DNA of 64,000 bases, taken from NCBI GenBank assembly GCA_015069495.1, contig SVIN01000001.1, positions 1 to 64,000 of the forward strand. Direction: 5' to 3'. Made by a program: the position numbers and the translations under genes. Positions 2,322 to 61,343 of this stretch are shown here, piece after piece (within the stretch, counting starts at the first letter, position 1; every line of letters starts with the position of its first letter). Source of the DNA: Clostridiales bacterium (lineage in GTDB: Bacteria; Bacillota; Clostridia; Christensenellales; Borkfalkiaceae). The notes below the pieces were generated by a model that did not search any database, had not been told where the DNA came from, and saw only the letters and a list, made by a program, of their open reading frames with translations.

Positions 2322-5300
2322 TTACTCAGCAGTATTTTCTTCAGGTGCAGCCTCGGTCGTTTCCGATTGCGCATCCTCTGCTACTTCTTTCTCGATGATA
2401 ACTTCAGGTTCTTCCGTCTTCTTTTCCTTGAAAAAGTTGAACGTTCCGTTTTTGTTTTCACGCCAGAAGATGAACCCTGCAAGTCCAAGCACTGCAACCG
2501 AAAGCATGACAATCGCTACCACGTAGCCAACCTTGCCAGGTGCAGTTACGGTCGAATCGTTGGACGAAGAATCACCCGAACTGCTCGAATCGTCCGTGTC
2601 GCCAGGAACGTCTGTACCAGGATCTTCAGGCTCAACGGGTACGTTTAACTTCAAATATTCCAACGTAGATTCCGCATTGCTCAGTTTGCTGTAAGCGTCC
2701 GTAATCAATGCTCTTTGTTCAAGCGAAGTAAGTTTATCGTATGCCGCGCGTGCAATCAAGATTGCATCTTCATCCGCAAGCGAGATGCTGGTGGGAAGTT
2801 TGTTGATTAACCCGACAACGTCCACCGCTTCCTGCGTCAATGCATTGCCGCCGTCTACAATCATGCTGAAATATTGATTCATGATGAACGTGTTATAGTT
2901 TTTACCGTTTGCAGGTTTTACCATAACGATATTCTTATCCACGTCACCGATGAAATCTACGAAGTTTGCACCAAAGTAGAAGTTGCTGAACTGCGCCGTA
3001 GGATTCCACATGTAGTATTTCACGATACCCAAACCTTCGTAATCGCCAATCTTACCCGTCATTGCAAGGCAATCGTAGGAAAGACGCGAGGTGTCGTAAT
3101 CTTCTTCCAAGATAGGTGCGTCATAGCTCTTGAATACAACCAATGCAAGGTTGTTACAATCGTAGAACGCCTTATCGCCCACTGCTTTCAACGACCAAGG
3201 AAGGGTTACGTTTTCAAGGCTTGCGCCGTAGAATGCTCTTGCCGTGATTCTTACCGTGTTCTCCGCTACGCTGTAAGCCTTCACATCTTTCAACGTAGGA
3301 TAGGAAATCAATTCAAGACCATTGTTTACACGTTGATACAATACACCGTCGATGACCTGAATCTTATCATTGATTACGTAGGTTTCTACCAATTCCTGTT
3401 TCAAAACAGCACCATTGAAGGTTACGTCTTGTATTACGCCGTAGGTTTCAATTGCACAGCCGTAGAAAGGATTTTCACCAAAGCTTTCGATTTTATCGCC
3501 AAAGATGACTTCCGTCACGTTCGAATCACCGAATGCAAAGTCACCAATCTCGGTAGCCGCACTGAGGTCTGCCTTCGTGATTGCCGTACCTTGGAACGCC
3601 ATCGCGCCAATCGAAACCGTCTTCGAAAGGTCAACGCTCGTCAAGAATTCACATTCGCTGAATGCCGCTTCACCAATCGTTGCGCCGTCTTTCAAGACAA
3701 CGGACGTGATTGCCGTATCGGTATAAGCGTAAGCACCGATTTCTTCTACATTGCTCAAATTCAATTCATCGGCAAGACCCGTCTGGTAGAATGCATATTC
3801 GCCAACCGACTTCACACTGCTAGGCAACGTGACGTTCGTCAACGAGGAGCAAAGTGCAAACGTGTAATTGGAAATGGCAGTCAAGCTGTCGCTCAAAGTT
3901 ACCGTTTCCAAATCACGGTTGTAAGCAAACGCACCTTCACCGATTTTCGTTGCACCAGAAACGTTTAAGGTTTTAAATACAGGTGCGAAAGTGCTCAATT
4001 GGTAACCAAGGATCATTTCCTGACCCTTTTCACCATTTTCACCGGGTACGTAAACAAGTCTGTATGCTTCCGAAATATATTGTCTTGCTTTTTCCGTCGT
4101 TTCGTCAAGCGTCGCGATGATTTGGTAGTCATTCAAGCTTGTACCCGAGAATGCGTATTTGCCAATCGAGGTTACGCCAGAAAGATCCAATTCGCTTAAT
4201 ACGGTTGCGCCTTCTTTATAGAACGCCGCGTTCATAAACGCATAATCGTTCACCGTTATGCCCGTACCGAAGGTAAGCGTATGAATCTTCGCGTTACCTG
4301 CAAAGGCGTATTCGCCAACCGTTACGTTGTTACCGATGGTAACTTTCGTAAGCAACGAAGGTATTAATTTTTCATGTTTTGTATAATCGTATTTGTAGTA
4401 GGTATACGATTTCGCCTGCGATTGATCCGCAACGACGTTGCCGTCTTTATCAATATAATTACCGTCTTCGTCTTGGAGATAATATTGATATGCGGTATAG
4501 TAACTGAGGCTGTTCGTATTTTCAAACGTTTGGAGATAGATGGGTGCATTGAATGCGCCTTTTCCCAACGTAACGTTGTCATTGATGACAACTTCCGTCA
4601 ACGTTTCCGCAACGTATCTAAGTTTGTTACCTACTTGATATTCGCCAAATGCGTATTCGCCTACCGTAACTTTAGCGTCTACCGATTCGCCTGCTACAAT
4701 TTCAACTTTTTCAAGAAGCGTACCTGCAAATGCATACGCGCCGATTGTCGTAAGCGTACTGGGCATTGCGGTCAAATTCGTACCTGCAAATGCGTATTTA
4801 CCTACGGATTTCACGTTCGGCATTACCACTTCTTCCAAGCTGGAGCATTCTGCAAATGCGTAATCGCCAATCGTTTCTACGTTTTCAGCCGTGAATTTTC
4901 TAATGACGGTATTGCCTGCAAATGCACCCGACGCAATCTTGGTTGCCGTCGTCGGAAAGTTGAACGAAGCGCCTTTCGGTGCGACCAAAATCAATTCGCC
5001 ATTCTTCAACAAGCATGCGCTGTTTGTCTCGTCAACGGTAATTGCACCACCTTCTTCCACGGTGAAGGTCGAGATGTTCGTACCCGTGAATGCAAATTCA
5101 CCGATAACGGCAACGTCTTTACCAAGGGTAATCGTTGTCAACGCTTCACAATCATAGAATGCATAGGAAGAAATAACCGCCGCGTTTACCTTAACGTTGT
5201 TCAATTTGGGACAGTTTTCAAATACGTAAGAACCAAGCTTCATCTTGGGAGCTTCGAAGTTTACGCCTCTCAATTCCTTATTGTCCGCAAATGCACCGAT

Positions 5301-37848: not shown

Positions 37849-38373
37849 TTATTTCCCTATAATACGCTTTACCAGCATGTTAACTGCAAAGCGCCATTTA
37901 TACATGAGGTAATCATACCCCACAAACATGATTGTGCCAAATATCAATATAATGTAAAAAATGTATTGGTCTACAAAAGGAATCGTCGTTGTCATTGCAA
38001 AGACGAATCTCCAAATAACGTACATGGTAGAATCAAACCATACGGCTTTTATTCCGCACGCCAGCCAACGGTTGATTTTTACCTTTAACTGCAACTCATT
38101 GACAAGCGGATGTAAACCGAAAAACATAATAAACGGCAACAAATCAATAAAGCCCGACGCATTAAAAATCAGGGCAAGAATACAAGTTGCCAAATACGCC
38201 AATACGTACCCGCGATAGCTTTGCTTTGCCAACGGCATCATCAAGGCAATCCCCGCAAAGAGATAACCCGTAAACAGAAGAACTGCCGAATAAATCCCGA
38301 CGGTTAAAAAAATCGTCGCAACCGCACAAGCCAACGCGGACAGCGCTATTTCATGAGAAGATATTTTTTTCAT
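37849..38373 (-). CDS. Small polytopic membrane protein of unknown function
   Basis: The 174-residue protein is almost wholly hydrophobic, with about five predicted helices (for example ALACAVATIFLTVGIYSAVLLF, VLAYLATCILALIF, YIFYIILIFGTIMFVGY) and a basic C-terminus. Its size and helix layout recall the S components of ECF vitamin importers, but no ligand signature is recognised. Its ATG overlaps the stop of the four-helix-bundle gene by 4 bp, so the two are translationally coupled. Confidence 0.65.
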   Translation of the reverse strand: MKKISSHEIALSALACAVATIFLTVGIYSAVLLFTGYLFAGIALMMPLAKQSYRGYVLAYLATCILALIFNASGFIDLLPFIMFFGLHPLVNELQLKVKINRWLACGIKAVWFDSTMYVIWRFVFAMTTTIPFVDQYIFYIILIFGTIMFVGYDYLMYKWRFAVNMLVKRIIGK

Positions 38374-38714
38374 GATACCGCCTTTGCAGTGGTAATCGAT
38401 GCAATCAACTTTCTTCGTATCGTACCATTCATATTTTTATATTGGTTGTATATCTCTTCACTAATCGCACGCACTCTATATAATATCTCCAACCAGTAAT
38501 CCGTCTCGTAACATTCTTTCAAGGCAATTTCCATCTTATGAACAAAATCCGCACGGCTCTGCGCATATTTCGCTTCACAGGCATTCGCCCCAATAGAAGA
38601 ACTTGCTCTCAATAATTGATTCACAAATACCGACCGACCGCTGATTTCATCACAAACACCAGTCAAGCCAATAGTCAATTCAATCGCTAAATCTCTAATA
38701 TTTTGCGTGCTCAT
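38370..38714 (-). CDS. Four-helix-bundle (S23 / 23S rRNA intervening-sequence type) protein
   Basis: The 114-residue protein matches the S23 family: IRDLAIELTIGLTGVCDEI, then VNQLLRASSSIGANACEA and KMEIALKECYETDYWLEIL. Members were first found in intervening sequences of 23S rRNA but are often free-standing, as here; their function is poorly known and a nucleic-acid-binding role has been suggested. It is the first gene of a three-gene run and lies next to the ACGATATA hairpin array. Confidence 0.85.
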   Translation of the reverse strand: MSTQNIRDLAIELTIGLTGVCDEISGRSVFVNQLLRASSSIGANACEAKYAQSRADFVHKMEIALKECYETDYWLEILYRVRAISEEIYNQYKNMNGTIRRKLIASITTAKAVS

Positions 38715-38726
38715 ACATATCCTCTT

Positions 38727-38932
38727 TACGATATACTCTCTTCGTTCGCACGATATAATTACATTACGATATAGGTTCGCCTTGCGCCCTACGATATGAT
38801 ATAAATCCTTTACGTTTTAGCAACCACGCTTCTGCGAGGTTTGCTAAAACATATCGTATCGCAGATATATCGTACGTATAACGTATATCGTAAATCCAAC
38901 GGATTTATATCGCTAAAAGACTTTGTCTTTTA
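38727..38932. repeat. Hairpin array with ACGATATA spacers, symmetric four-plus-four layout
   Basis: Four copies of ACGATAT point rightwards (starting near 38728, 38750, 38766, 38790), and four copies of ATATCGT or ATATCG point leftwards (near 38851, 38868, 38884, 38908). Between them sits a long hairpin, GTTTTAGCAA...TTGCTAAAAC. The leftward spacers separate short different hairpins: TACG-TATAA-CGTA, AAATCC-AAC-GGATTT and TAAAAGAC-TTT-GTCTTTTA. The last ends exactly at the stop codon of the J-like gene. Confidence 0.75.
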
Positions 38933-39544
38933 TTATCTGCAACCGCAACACAAACTAAATAAGCAATCTACGCAAAGATAGGTGTAACAGCAGGAAATGC
39001 AATTGGAACACGCACTGCTTCCACCCATTTGGTCGTCGTAAGGCGAATTTTGATAAGGGTTTTGCGGGTTCGCATACGCTTGTTGCTGTTGGTAATTGTT
39101 TTTCGCATTTAATTTACCGTATTGCGTACGGTATTTTTGATTATCGGGATCCATTTGCATCGCAATTTCCAATTGCTTTTTACTATCGTTAATCCAATTT
39201 TTCTTGTAAAAAACAACTGCTTGCATATAATGCCATTCCGCCGAACGTTCGTTAAAATTATCCAAACGGGCTTGCGCTTCCGCAATTTTATTTTCCTTTA
39301 ATAATTGCGTAATTTCCTCAAAAGTATTTGGACCTTCCGTGTTCTTTTCTTGGTCTCTGCGATTGGTCATAATTTCACGGTACGCCGTTTCTAACTTCGT
39401 CAGCATGCGCGCCGCCTCGTTGCCCGCTTCGCCGTCCTGCCAACGCTCTTCACGGTATTTTTCCGTCAATTCGCTGTAACGGGCGGTAATCTCTTCGTCC
39501 GTGGCAGTTTCTTTTAAGCCAAGCAATTCGTAATATTCGTTCAT
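38933..39544 (-). CDS. J-domain-like protein with TPR-like helices and Cys-rich C-terminus
   Basis: The start at 39544 (MNEYYELLGLKETATDEEI) is chosen because the upstream in-frame ATG overlaps the AGGAG site; the product has 203 residues. The N-terminus looks like helices I-II of a J domain, but the HPD tripeptide needed to stimulate Hsp70 is absent (EKYREERWQDGE in its place). Residues ~90-150 form TPR-like helices (AEWHYMQAVVFYKKNWINDS). A Gln/Asn/Pro-rich linker precedes a C-terminal stretch with nine Cys (CSNCISCCYTYLC...CCGC), which may bind metal or be lipidated. It is 45 bp downstream of the DUF5685 gene, suggesting joint function. Confidence 0.75.
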   Translation of the reverse strand: MNEYYELLGLKETATDEEITARYSELTEKYREERWQDGEAGNEAARMLTKLETAYREIMTNRRDQEKNTEGPNTFEEITQLLKENKIAEAQARLDNFNERSAEWHYMQAVVFYKKNWINDSKKQLEIAMQMDPDNQKYRTQYGKLNAKNNYQQQQAYANPQNPYQNSPYDDQMGGSSACSNCISCCYTYLCVDCLFSLCCGCR

Positions 39545-39589
39545 CTTTCTATATTCTCCTAAGGGCATTTACCCCAATATTTTACTTTG

Positions 39590-48737: not shown

Positions 48738-48795
48738 TTTTGAGAGAAAGCACGGCTTTCCTGACGGACGCGCAAATACGCATCTCGTCTTAACA

Positions 48796-48906
48796 ACGCA
48801 GATACAAGCAGTTCAAGGCGCGCTGAGCACCCCGACGGGAGTGTACATAGACGTACACGAGCAAACCGCGCGGAAACGCAACGAAGAAATGTGAAGTAAA
48901 TACACC
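48796..48906. repeat. ~110-bp structured repeat, copy A
   Basis: AAGCAGTTCAAGGCGC, GAGCACCCCG, GGGAG(T)GTAC, GTAC and CGCGGAAACGCAACG recur in the same order at 59913-60028. The central hairpin GTGTAC/GTACAC is CGTAC/GTACG in copy B, a paired change that keeps the stem. Confidence 0.7.
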
Positions 48907-50389: not shown

Positions 50390-50582
50390 GTGAATTAACG
50401 GCTCAGCCGTCGTGAATTGCGCTTTTGCGCGTGAATTGGTTTCACCGTGAATTGCAACGCTCTGCGTTGCGTTATGGCAAATTTTAACAACAACGACAGT
50501 ACAACTGTCATTTTACGAAAACAACGTTTTCAATTCACAAACTTTTGGTTCCATTCACGCAAAGCACTGCTTTGCATTTCAC
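50390..50582. repeat. CGTGAATTG/CAATTCACG hairpin array with orientation switch, copy 3
   Basis: The left half uses CGTGAATTG between ACGGC-TCA-GCCGT, CGC-TTTT-GCG, GGT-TTC-ACC and the end module CAACGC-TCT-GCGTTG plus CGTTATGGC. The right half uses degraded CAATTCAC or CATTTCAC around GACAGT-ACA-ACTGTC, GAAAAC-AAC-GTTTTC and CAAAGC-ACT-GCTTTG. It fills the gap between two plus-strand genes and ends 9 bases before the ribosome site of the phosphodiesterase. Confidence 0.8.
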
Positions 50583-59578: not shown

Positions 59579-59912
59579 CAATCCGCAAACCAGAGGTTTA
59601 CAATTCACGCCAAACATTTGCAATTCACGACAGTTTAACCGTCAATTCACGACAGCATAGCTGTCAATATCTAATTTTCTCAATCCGCAAACCAAAGGTT
59701 TGCAATTCACGAAAACGAAGTTTTCAATTCACGCAAAGCATTTGCAATTCACGCGCAAGCAGCGCAATTCACGACAGCGTAGCTGTCAATATCTAATTTT
59801 CTCAATCCGCAAACCAAAGGTTTGCAATTCACGAAAACGAAGTTTTCAATTCACGCAAAGCATTTGCAATTCACGACGGTTTAACCGTCAATTCACGACA
59901 GCGTAGCTGTCA
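59579..59912. repeat. CAATTCACG hairpin array, longest copy (copy 4) with 122-bp higher-order repeat
   Basis: About fourteen hairpins are separated by CAATTCACG: CAAACC-AAA-GGTTTG, AAAAC-GAA-GTTTT, CAAA-GCA-TTTG, GCGC-AAGCA-GCGC, ACAG-CGTAG-CTGT, ACGG-TTTA-ACCGT and variants. A block beginning CAATATCTAATTTTCTCAATCC repeats with a 122-bp period; in the last block the GCGC hairpin is replaced by the ACGG one. It lies between hisS and hslU. Confidence 0.88.
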
Positions 59913-60028
59913 AAACGGCGGAGATGCAAGCAGTTCAAGGCGCATCGAGCACCCCGCAGGGAGCGTACAAGAGGTACGTGACCAAGGGGCGCGGAAATGC
60001 AACGCCGAAATGCGAAGTATATACGCCG
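59913..60028. repeat. ~110-bp structured repeat, copy B
   Basis: It follows the hairpin array directly and matches copy A at 48796. Its ends AAAACGGCG and CGCCGTTTTTT also pair, so on the plus strand the whole could act as a large terminator-like fold behind hslU. Confidence 0.7.
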
Positions 60029-60032
60029 TTTT

Positions 60033-61343
60033 TTAGAGAATATACTTTTTAAGGTTCCTATCCCCAGTCAATTTCTTTAAATGCTCATCCACATAATTGC
60101 GGTCGATGTTCAGGGTAAACATGGGATAATCCCCGCCTGCGTTGAAGGAAATATCTTCCAATAAATATTCCATGACCGTGTGCAAACGTCTTGCACCGAT
60201 ATCTTCCGACGTCAAGTTCAACTCTACCGAAACTTCGGCAATCCGTTCAATTGCGCCTTTATCAAATTGTAAATCAATGTTATCCACAGCAAGCAACTGA
60301 CTGTATTGGAAGACAAGCGAATTTTCCGTTTCTGTCAAAATACGCACGAAATCCTCTTTCGTCAAACTGCGCAATTCCACCGATACAGGGAAACGACCCT
60401 GCAATTCGGGAATCAAATCCTCAATCGCCGCCACGTGGAATGCGCCCGCCGCGATAAACAAAATGAAATCCGTTTTGATGGGACCATACTTGGTCACTAC
60501 CGTCGAACCTTCCACGATGGGCAAAATATCGCGCTGTACCCCTTCGCGGGAAACGTCCGCACCATTGCGGTTACCCTTGCCTGCAATTTTGTCAATTTCG
60601 TCGATAAACACGATACCGTCGTTTTCTGCACGGTATAACGCTTCCGACTTAATCGCATCCTCGTCCACCAATTTATCCGATTCTTCCGCGAGCGCAATTT
60701 GGAAGGCCTCACGTACCGTCAAACGGCGTTTCTTCTTTTTCTGTGGGAACATATCCCCGAAAATACTGCCAATGGAAATGGCTGTCGCACCAGGCATCAG
60801 CTCCATGGGTTGCTGAGGCACGTCCACCACTTCCATTTCAATGGTAAAGTTGTCATACGCGCCGCTGCGCAATCCGTCCAAAAGGTTTGCCTCAAACACT
60901 TCTTTTGCCGTATCGCCCTTTTCATCCTTTTTCGCCTCTGCAAGCACGCGCAAGATACGCTTTTCCGCCGCCGAAGTCGCACGGGCTTTTACCTCTTCTT
61001 CCTTTTCCGCTTTCACCAAACGATACGCGCATTCTGCCAAGTCGCGGATCATACCTTCCACGTCCTTGCCCACGTACCCAACCTCGGTGTATTTGGTCGC
61101 TTCCACCTTCACAAAAGGTGCTTTGACAAGCTTTGCCAAGCGACGGGCAATCTCCGTTTTACCAACCCCCGTCGGGCCTTTCATGATGATATTTTTCGGT
61201 GTGATTTCCTCACGGATTTCCGTAGGCAATTGCGCCCTTCTGTAACGATTGCGCAAAGCGATTGCCACCGCCTTTTTTGCCTCGTCCTGACCGATGATAT
61301 ATTTGTCTAATCTATATACGATTTGCTTGGGGGATAAATCCAT
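60033..61343 (-). CDS. hslU: ATP-dependent HslUV protease, ATPase subunit HslU
   Basis: The start at 61343 (MDLSPKQIVYRLDKYIIGQDEAKKAV) has AAAGGAGG before it; the track's longer form reads back into hslV. The 436-residue AAA+ unfoldase has Walker A GPTGVGKTEIA, the pore loop GYVGKDVEGMIRDL, Walker B IVFIDEIDKIAG and the sensor-2 part EDIGARRLHTVMEYLLEDI; the C-terminal KKYIL docks into HslV. It follows hslV with one base between stop and start. Confidence 0.96.
   Translation of the reverse strand: MDLSPKQIVYRLDKYIIGQDEAKKAVAIALRNRYRRAQLPTEIREEITPKNIIMKGPTGVGKTEIARRLAKLVKAPFVKVEATKYTEVGYVGKDVEGMIRDLAECAYRLVKAEKEEEVKARATSAAEKRILRVLAEAKKDEKGDTAKEVFEANLLDGLRSGAYDNFTIEMEVVDVPQQPMELMPGATAISIGSIFGDMFPQKKKKRRLTVREAFQIALAEESDKLVDEDAIKSEALYRAENDGIVFIDEIDKIAGKGNRNGADVSREGVQRDILPIVEGSTVVTKYGPIKTDFILFIAAGAFHVAAIEDLIPELQGRFPVSVELRSLTKEDFVRILTETENSLVFQYSQLLAVDNIDLQFDKGAIERIAEVSVELNLTSEDIGARRLHTVMEYLLEDISFNAGGDYPMFTLNIDRNYVDEHLKKLTGDRNLKKYIL

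Follow-up and report, generated by a model that had tools for sequence, protein, structure and literature searches.

An inverted heptamer array adjoins an S23p/IVP gene

The window, by which we mean the whole 64-kb stretch of DNA analysed, contains an array of heptamers and hairpins at positions 38728-38932 that starts 13 bp upstream of a PF05635 gene (Table 1). The central hairpin has the arms GTTTTAGCAA and TTGCTAAAAC, and the small hairpins that separate the heptamers of the distal half-array differ from one another. The original prediction had described four ACGATAT repeats, a long central hairpin and four mirrored repeats with differing hairpins in between, all of which we found at the locus. 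Some of its details needed amending. The number of repeats was right, but the fourth right-hand repeat is ATATCGC and not ATATCGT; hairpins do lie between the spacers, but two of the three left-hand inserts (CTCTCTTCGTTCGC and AGGTTCGCCTTGCGCCCT) form only imperfect ones; and the plan of a fixed spacer with variable hairpins holds, whereas its 'orientation switch' is more accurately a pair of inverted half-arrays that are complementary to each other. Seven exact copies of ACGATAT within 164 bp have a chance probability of about 1e-15 (shuffled expectation, 9.45 per 64 kb), and the folding z-scores of the array against shuffles are -5.9 and -7.1, one for each strand. No known RNA family matched within the window, and no PADLOC defence system was matched. 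We also noticed that GGATTTATATC in the distal half-array (38901-38911) is able to pair with GATATAAATCC near the centre, an alternative long-range pairing, and that the GATATAAATCC motif recurs in the genome G017 and in the copy on contig C10 (L241 and L267).

Table 1 Features of the focal locus and sister elements in the window
Feature	Coordinates	Strand	Details
Host gene without family	37849..38373	-	174 aa; overlaps the PF05635 stop codon at its start
PF05635/TIGR02436 gene (23S rRNA-intervening-sequence protein, S23p/IVP)	38370..38714	-	114 aa
Gene-proximal half-array	38728..38797	+	ACGATAT x4 at 38728, 38750, 38766 and 38791; variable inserts
Centre	38798..38850	.	GATATAAATCC at 38798-38808, then long central hairpin at 38814-38850; from sequence and fold
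Distal complementary half-array	38851..38913	-	ATATCGT at 38851, 38867 and 38885; ATATCGC at 38907
Outermost hairpin	38914..38932	.	TAAAAGAC-TTT-GTCTTTTA; abuts the stop codon of the DnaJ-like gene
Host DnaJ-like gene	38933..39568	-	211 aa; its stop codon is one junction
Sister CAATTCACG element without gene	50391..50579	.	left CGTGAATTG half-array, core GTTATGG.., right half-array
Sister CAATTCACG half-array	59592..59913	+	three tandem units

The protein encoded beside the array matches Pfam PF05635 (E = 2.9e-20) and TIGR02436 (E = 2.1e-22). It is predicted to fold as a four-helix bundle (pLDDT 94.8), for which the best match in the PDB is 2rld, of the S23 family; 2gsc is also among the closest, and both entries contain five chains. 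The S23p protein of Xanthomonas is a homopentamer (PMC4990558). The partner found is not the transposase or nuclease that had been suggested for each spacer family but a small four-helix-bundle protein without known catalytic activity. The next structural matches were to Avd of diversity-generating retroelements (DGRs), alone (4dwl) and as subunits of the DGR ribonucleoprotein (8ub7), both with a TM of approximately 0.8. This shared fold raises the possibility that the protein acts like Avd and that a reverse transcriptase acting in trans copies the array RNA. We consider this highly unlikely. Avd belongs to a ribonucleoprotein (4dwl, 8ub7). No RVT_1 domain was found in this genome, which is 76% complete, and we did not notice a pair of template and variable repeats, although no dedicated search was made. 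In the absence of a detectable reverse transcriptase in this incomplete genome, we rejected the DGR reading.

Two heptamer families are dispersed in the genome

The genome comprises 1.74 Mb. It contains 40 ACGATAT-N(5-30)-ACGATAT pairs, compared with none for the reversed control pattern, and these are spread over some fifteen loci, mostly as one-sided half-arrays. A single locus with gradual decay of a gene would have refuted the original prediction, and this is not what we observed. A distinct family, CAATTCACG, accounts for a further 91 pairs. (A triple-pattern scan of the contigs additionally picked up numerous chance matches and simple repeats.) Half-arrays most often contain four heptamers, as in 39 of 49 AATTCAC runs; among 21 ACGATAT runs, ten had four heptamers and six had five. 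The unpaired spacer measures 7 nt in the AATTCAC, GTGAAGT and GTTATAT families. We dropped a 7-nt unpaired spacer as a rule for all families, as it would shrink to 5 nt in ACGATAT should the outer A-T pair be closed, which leaves only the 7-nt unit in common across families.

The inserts between heptamers vary in sequence while remaining palindromic. Arms of at least 4 bp were present in 44 of 63 distinct ACGATAT inserts, where shuffling predicts 0.8, and 26 different arm starts were counted; for CAATTCACG, 39 of 67 distinct inserts had such arms (1.5 expected). For 15 ACGATAT inserts of one length, the covariation score of the stem columns was 0.705 compared with 0.256 after shuffling, and none of 500 shuffles reached it; the heptamers in these rows are identical by choice of the search pattern. 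Across both families, 502 stem positions comprised 477 Watson-Crick, 8 G-T and 6 A-C pairs, without an excess of G-U. From the scarcity of G-U pairs we infer that the palindromes are maintained at the level of DNA and not RNA, or are young.

Three PF05635 genes were found in this genome. Besides the focal gene, the one at C40:24530-24835 sits between about ten CGTGAATTG and four CAATTCACG repeats with differing hairpins, and the one at C40:41581-41868 has plain TTCACTC/TTCACTT repeats upstream, without hairpins. The half-array at C40:24250-24460 (L226, 1220-1450), with about ten repeats and two alternating hairpins, appears to be a recent tandem expansion. The focal protein (ACGATAT) and the protein encoded at C40:24530-24835 (CAATTCACG) are approximately 46% identical. 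The proposal that two spacer families represent separate lineages of one mechanism is supported by this pairing of each family with its own PF05635 paralogue, and by the match between family and protein clade across genomes described below.

A different, dispersed repeat of about 110 bp (AAGCAGTTCAAGGCGC..GAGCACCCCG..GTACG..) occurs at 48780-48905 and 59915-60035 of the window and in L242 near 4860-4980. It sometimes adjoins hairpin arrays, and a sequence resembling it fills the intergenic gap beside the DnaJ-like gene in the congeners L345 and L350.

Heptamer families follow PF05635 clades

A de novo search revealed further families of hairpin arrays beside PF05635 genes in congeners, Akkermansia and Clostridia, namely AGTTATATT, AGTGAAGTT, ATGAAAT, CATGAATTG, AGTGTTATT and GTGATGT; GTGAAGT, GTTATAT, ATGAAAT, GTGATGT and other heptamers occur there in similar layouts. 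Most of the genomes compared were metagenome-assembled (MAGs). Mapping spacer family onto a tree of 56 PF05635 proteins, 29 of which were labelled, partly by eye, required seven changes, close to the minimum of six; shuffled labels required 19.1 on average, and none of 200 shuffles was as low. The RCGATAT clade comprises the proteins of this genome, G017, G004 and a Clostridiales MAG (65-67% identity). ACGATAT arrays also accompany PF05635 genes in rumen Akkermansia, where the half-arrays stand in the opposite order and the proteins belong to another clade, so the match of the heptamer there may be convergent. On the evidence of sequence alone, the spacer families may themselves be diverged relatives. 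Many fit a loose A[GA][TC]GA[AT]xTT pattern by eye, and the earlier description of the spacers as unrelated is doubtful.

Two layouts were observed. In the first, found for CAATTCACG, for AGTGAAGTT in congeners, and in Akkermansia, the gene lies between the half-arrays; in the second, both half-arrays lie upstream of the gene, as in the window and in L267, L272, L249, L305, L307, L308 and L319. The Akkermansia MAGs G380-G386 each have five to nine PF05635 genes, which represent several clades and array types. In L305, L307, L308, L255, L258 and L375, a very long perfect hairpin, usually situated behind a tRNA gene, immediately precedes the array; these hairpins are possibly terminators or the element's own end.

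The focal site is empty in the nearest congeners

In most congeners the 174-aa gene directly follows the DnaJ-like gene, and the gap between the DnaJ-like gene and the next gene is at most 53 bp in 24 of the 28 congeners with readable ends. Approximately 560 bp, comprising the array and the PF05635 gene, occupies this gap in the present genome and in G017. The site is empty in G078 and G026, the nearest congeners by DnaJ identity, and the same gap is filled differently in L345, L350 and L354.

Comparison of the two occupied sites revealed that all eight heptamers in G017 are GCGATAT, and here seven of the eight are ACGATAT. Most hairpins in G017 are other palindromes, for example AAAAAGCC-GGA-GGCTTTTT where the window has TAAAAGAC/GTCTTTTA. 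The heptamers have therefore changed in concert without homogenization of the hairpins, from which we infer a common reader of the heptamers rather than unequal crossing-over. We also considered whether hairpins and short repeats expand merely through slippage and template switching behind terminators, with the PF05635 gene a bystander. Near-perfect stems with few G-T pairs would fit palindrome correction by template switching, and tandem expansion has reached ten copies at C40:24275. Such growth would not account for heptamers that stay conserved between varying hairpins and change together, that number mostly four per side and that track protein clades across genera, and we give this explanation little credence.

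Gene-less CAATTCACG copies at different loci and in different contexts are 93.5% identical over 199 bp. For ACGATAT, the focal and C10 copies have only 65 bp in common, at 86% identity. No target-site duplication was seen in the copies or in the empty-site comparison, where the host sequence is too diverged for certainty, and no linked transposase was found. The element resembles MITEs in its short gene-less copies with inverted ends that are related to a gene-bearing element, but differs from them in that neither a transposase linked to it nor a target duplication was found. A GIY-YIG candidate partner downstream of the PF05635 gene in L319 (approximately 850-1108) was rejected, as it is a remnant with a reading frame that appears broken by eye and was not seen elsewhere.

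The dispersed intergenic palindromes, arranged head-to-tail and inverted, are also reminiscent of REP/BIME sequences moved by RAYT (REP-associated tyrosine transposase, Y1 HUH), and the genome does encode one Y1_Tnp protein. That gene has the appearance of an ordinary copy of the IS200 type and is not surrounded by arrays, and we disfavoured it as a partner. The arrays moreover reverse the organization of REPs, with conserved linkers and variable palindromes, they have no RAYT partner, and their heptamer families follow PF05635 instead. A REP/RAYT origin is accordingly very hard to credit.

At the level of whole genomes, PF05635 genes and arrays co-occur no more often than by chance, as 8 of 20 genomes with CAATTCACG arrays carried PF05635 (7.4 expected). 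Genomes rich in arrays can lack a PF05635 match altogether, including G066 (94 CAATTCACG pairs) and G035 (64 pairs, 93% complete). The gene is therefore either often lost or not needed for spread.

An array directly upstream of the gene, as in the window and several relatives, could alternatively be regulatory. The protein would bind the array in its own mRNA leader, as well as dispersed arrays in other mRNAs, and control translation, termination or stability, with spread being incidental. Arrays are often located behind stop codons and tRNA genes, and heptamer repeats close to start codons have been interpreted as sites for regulators (PMC4679880). We think this account unlikely, given that half-arrays enclose the gene in the CAATTCACG and Akkermansia elements, that gene-less copies are dispersed, that the stems contain few G-U pairs and that arrays are abundant in genomes without the gene.

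Plain heptamer arrays flank other PF05635 genes

Tandem repeats with a period of 7 are frequent in the flanks of PF05635 genes that lack hairpin arrays. A lag-7 score of at least 0.7 was reached by 25.6% of 160 PF05635 flanks compared with 1.9% of controls 700-900 bp away, and only lags of 7 and 14 stood out. For plasmid-borne PF05635 genes (from Nostoc, Anabaena, Planktothrix, Dolichospermum, Gloeocapsa, Treponema, Bernardetia and Monoglobus), the period was found in 20 of 22, compared with 1 of 22 controls. In 40 of 96 genes, the upstream flank is an inverted copy of the downstream one, compared with 3.4% of mismatched pairs. Plain heptamers occurred at 31 of 55 non-hairpin genes and at none of 32 hairpin-type genes, which suggests that the two kinds of array are alternatives; mixed plain and hairpin forms were seen in Akkermansia (L314, L320 and L321). 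Hairpin arrays thus look like a variant of plain heptamer arrays, usually with four heptamers per side and a hairpin in between.

Heptamer arrays end rRNA intervening sequences

S23p/IVP proteins are named for intervening sequences (IVSs) in 23S rRNA. Both the role of the protein and the origin of IVSs have been described as unclear, and IVS mobility has been proposed but not shown (PMC4990558). In a sample taken across phyla, four PF05635 loci lie inside 23S rRNA (L291, L297, L302 and L303), and in L300 (1229-2003) a PF05635 gene with inverted heptamer ends interrupts RNase P RNA. We found that these insertions carry inverted heptamer arrays at their ends, the downstream end of L303 being unresolved. 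Those of L291, for example, read GGTTAGA TGTTAGA GGTTAGA AGTTGGA and TCCAACA TCCAACT TCCAACA TCTAACC. The rRNA insertions have about four heptamers per side, like the focal element. In Coxiella, the terminal stem of the IVS measures 28 bp, and GACAGAT heptamers precede the ORF (PMC4990558); four heptamers of 7 nt would give the same length, a coincidence that is suggestive only.

The focal element encodes the same protein family as the IVSs of Leptospira and Coxiella that carry an S23p/IVP ORF, and it has inverted complementary half-arrays where they have inverted complementary ends. It differs from them in its hairpins between heptamers, its dispersed gene-less copies and its location between protein genes, as the focal copy is not inside 23S rRNA but between the DnaJ-like gene and the 174-aa ORF. 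Its two complementary half-arrays are found on the same side of the gene, which sets this copy apart from a textbook IVS; the sister CAATTCACG and Akkermansia elements have the gene between the half-arrays.

TAACTGA heptamer repeats in Cyanobacteria, Beggiatoaceae and Bacteroidetes are likewise intergenic direct heptamers with a patchy distribution, and have no known mechanism (PMC4679880). A link to PF05635 was not proposed for them in that work, and we did not notice TAACTGA in the loci read here. Our literature search found no earlier report of a connection between heptamers and PF05635; its coverage of subscription journals was thin, so this is weak evidence of novelty.

A probable selfish element related to intervening sequences

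We conclude that the focal array is probably the repeat part of a small selfish IVS-like element that carries its own S23p/IVP gene, the product of which is inferred to recognize the heptamer. Such an element would combine one S23p/IVP gene with two half-arrays, inverted relative to each other and each of about four heptamers. The protein, which is related to pentameric four-helix bundles, would recognize its own heptamer, and the complementary half-arrays could pair into a long stem like that of classical IVSs. The hairpins between heptamers would be free to vary while palindromic, looping out and so keeping the heptamers in register, and gene-less copies may spread through the genome in the manner of MITEs, moved by host enzymes or an unknown partner. 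That the protein recognizes the heptamer, that the stem forms in vivo and how the element moves are all inferences, and there are no binding data. Given the unlinked transposase, the failure to find a reverse transcriptase or a target duplication, the chance-level co-occurrence and the inferred nature of binding and movement, we limit our verdict to a selfish IVS-like element and regard the pairing of protein and heptamer as its main testable claim.

More tentatively, and with more doubt than conviction, S23p/IVP proteins in general may be sequence-specific readers, each with its own heptamer, of a widespread selfish class in which half-arrays of about four heptamers would suit a ring-shaped reader and hairpins keep the register. 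If so, this class would cover rRNA IVSs, plain heptamer arrays and hairpin arrays, with many orthogonal protein-heptamer pairs. The findings themselves connect two puzzles, the role of S23p/IVP and the heptamer repeats reported from several phyla without a mechanism. PF05635 genes from different phyla sit within inverted heptamer arrays, and the agreement of heptamer family with clade names a testable ligand. The findings also account for a type of hairpin array in gut genomes that resembles CRISPR but is not one.

PF05635 genes with heptamer flanks were also seen inside other systems in L369 and L370 (Nostoc and Anabaena plasmids), L377 and L373, where the pair of genes on either side is cas2 and cas1, hsdS and hsdR, or drmD and pglX. 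On two contigs deposited as phage (L375 and L376; MT835815.1 and MT835590.1), PF05635 genes are accompanied by hairpin arrays of the AGTGATATT type and related ones.
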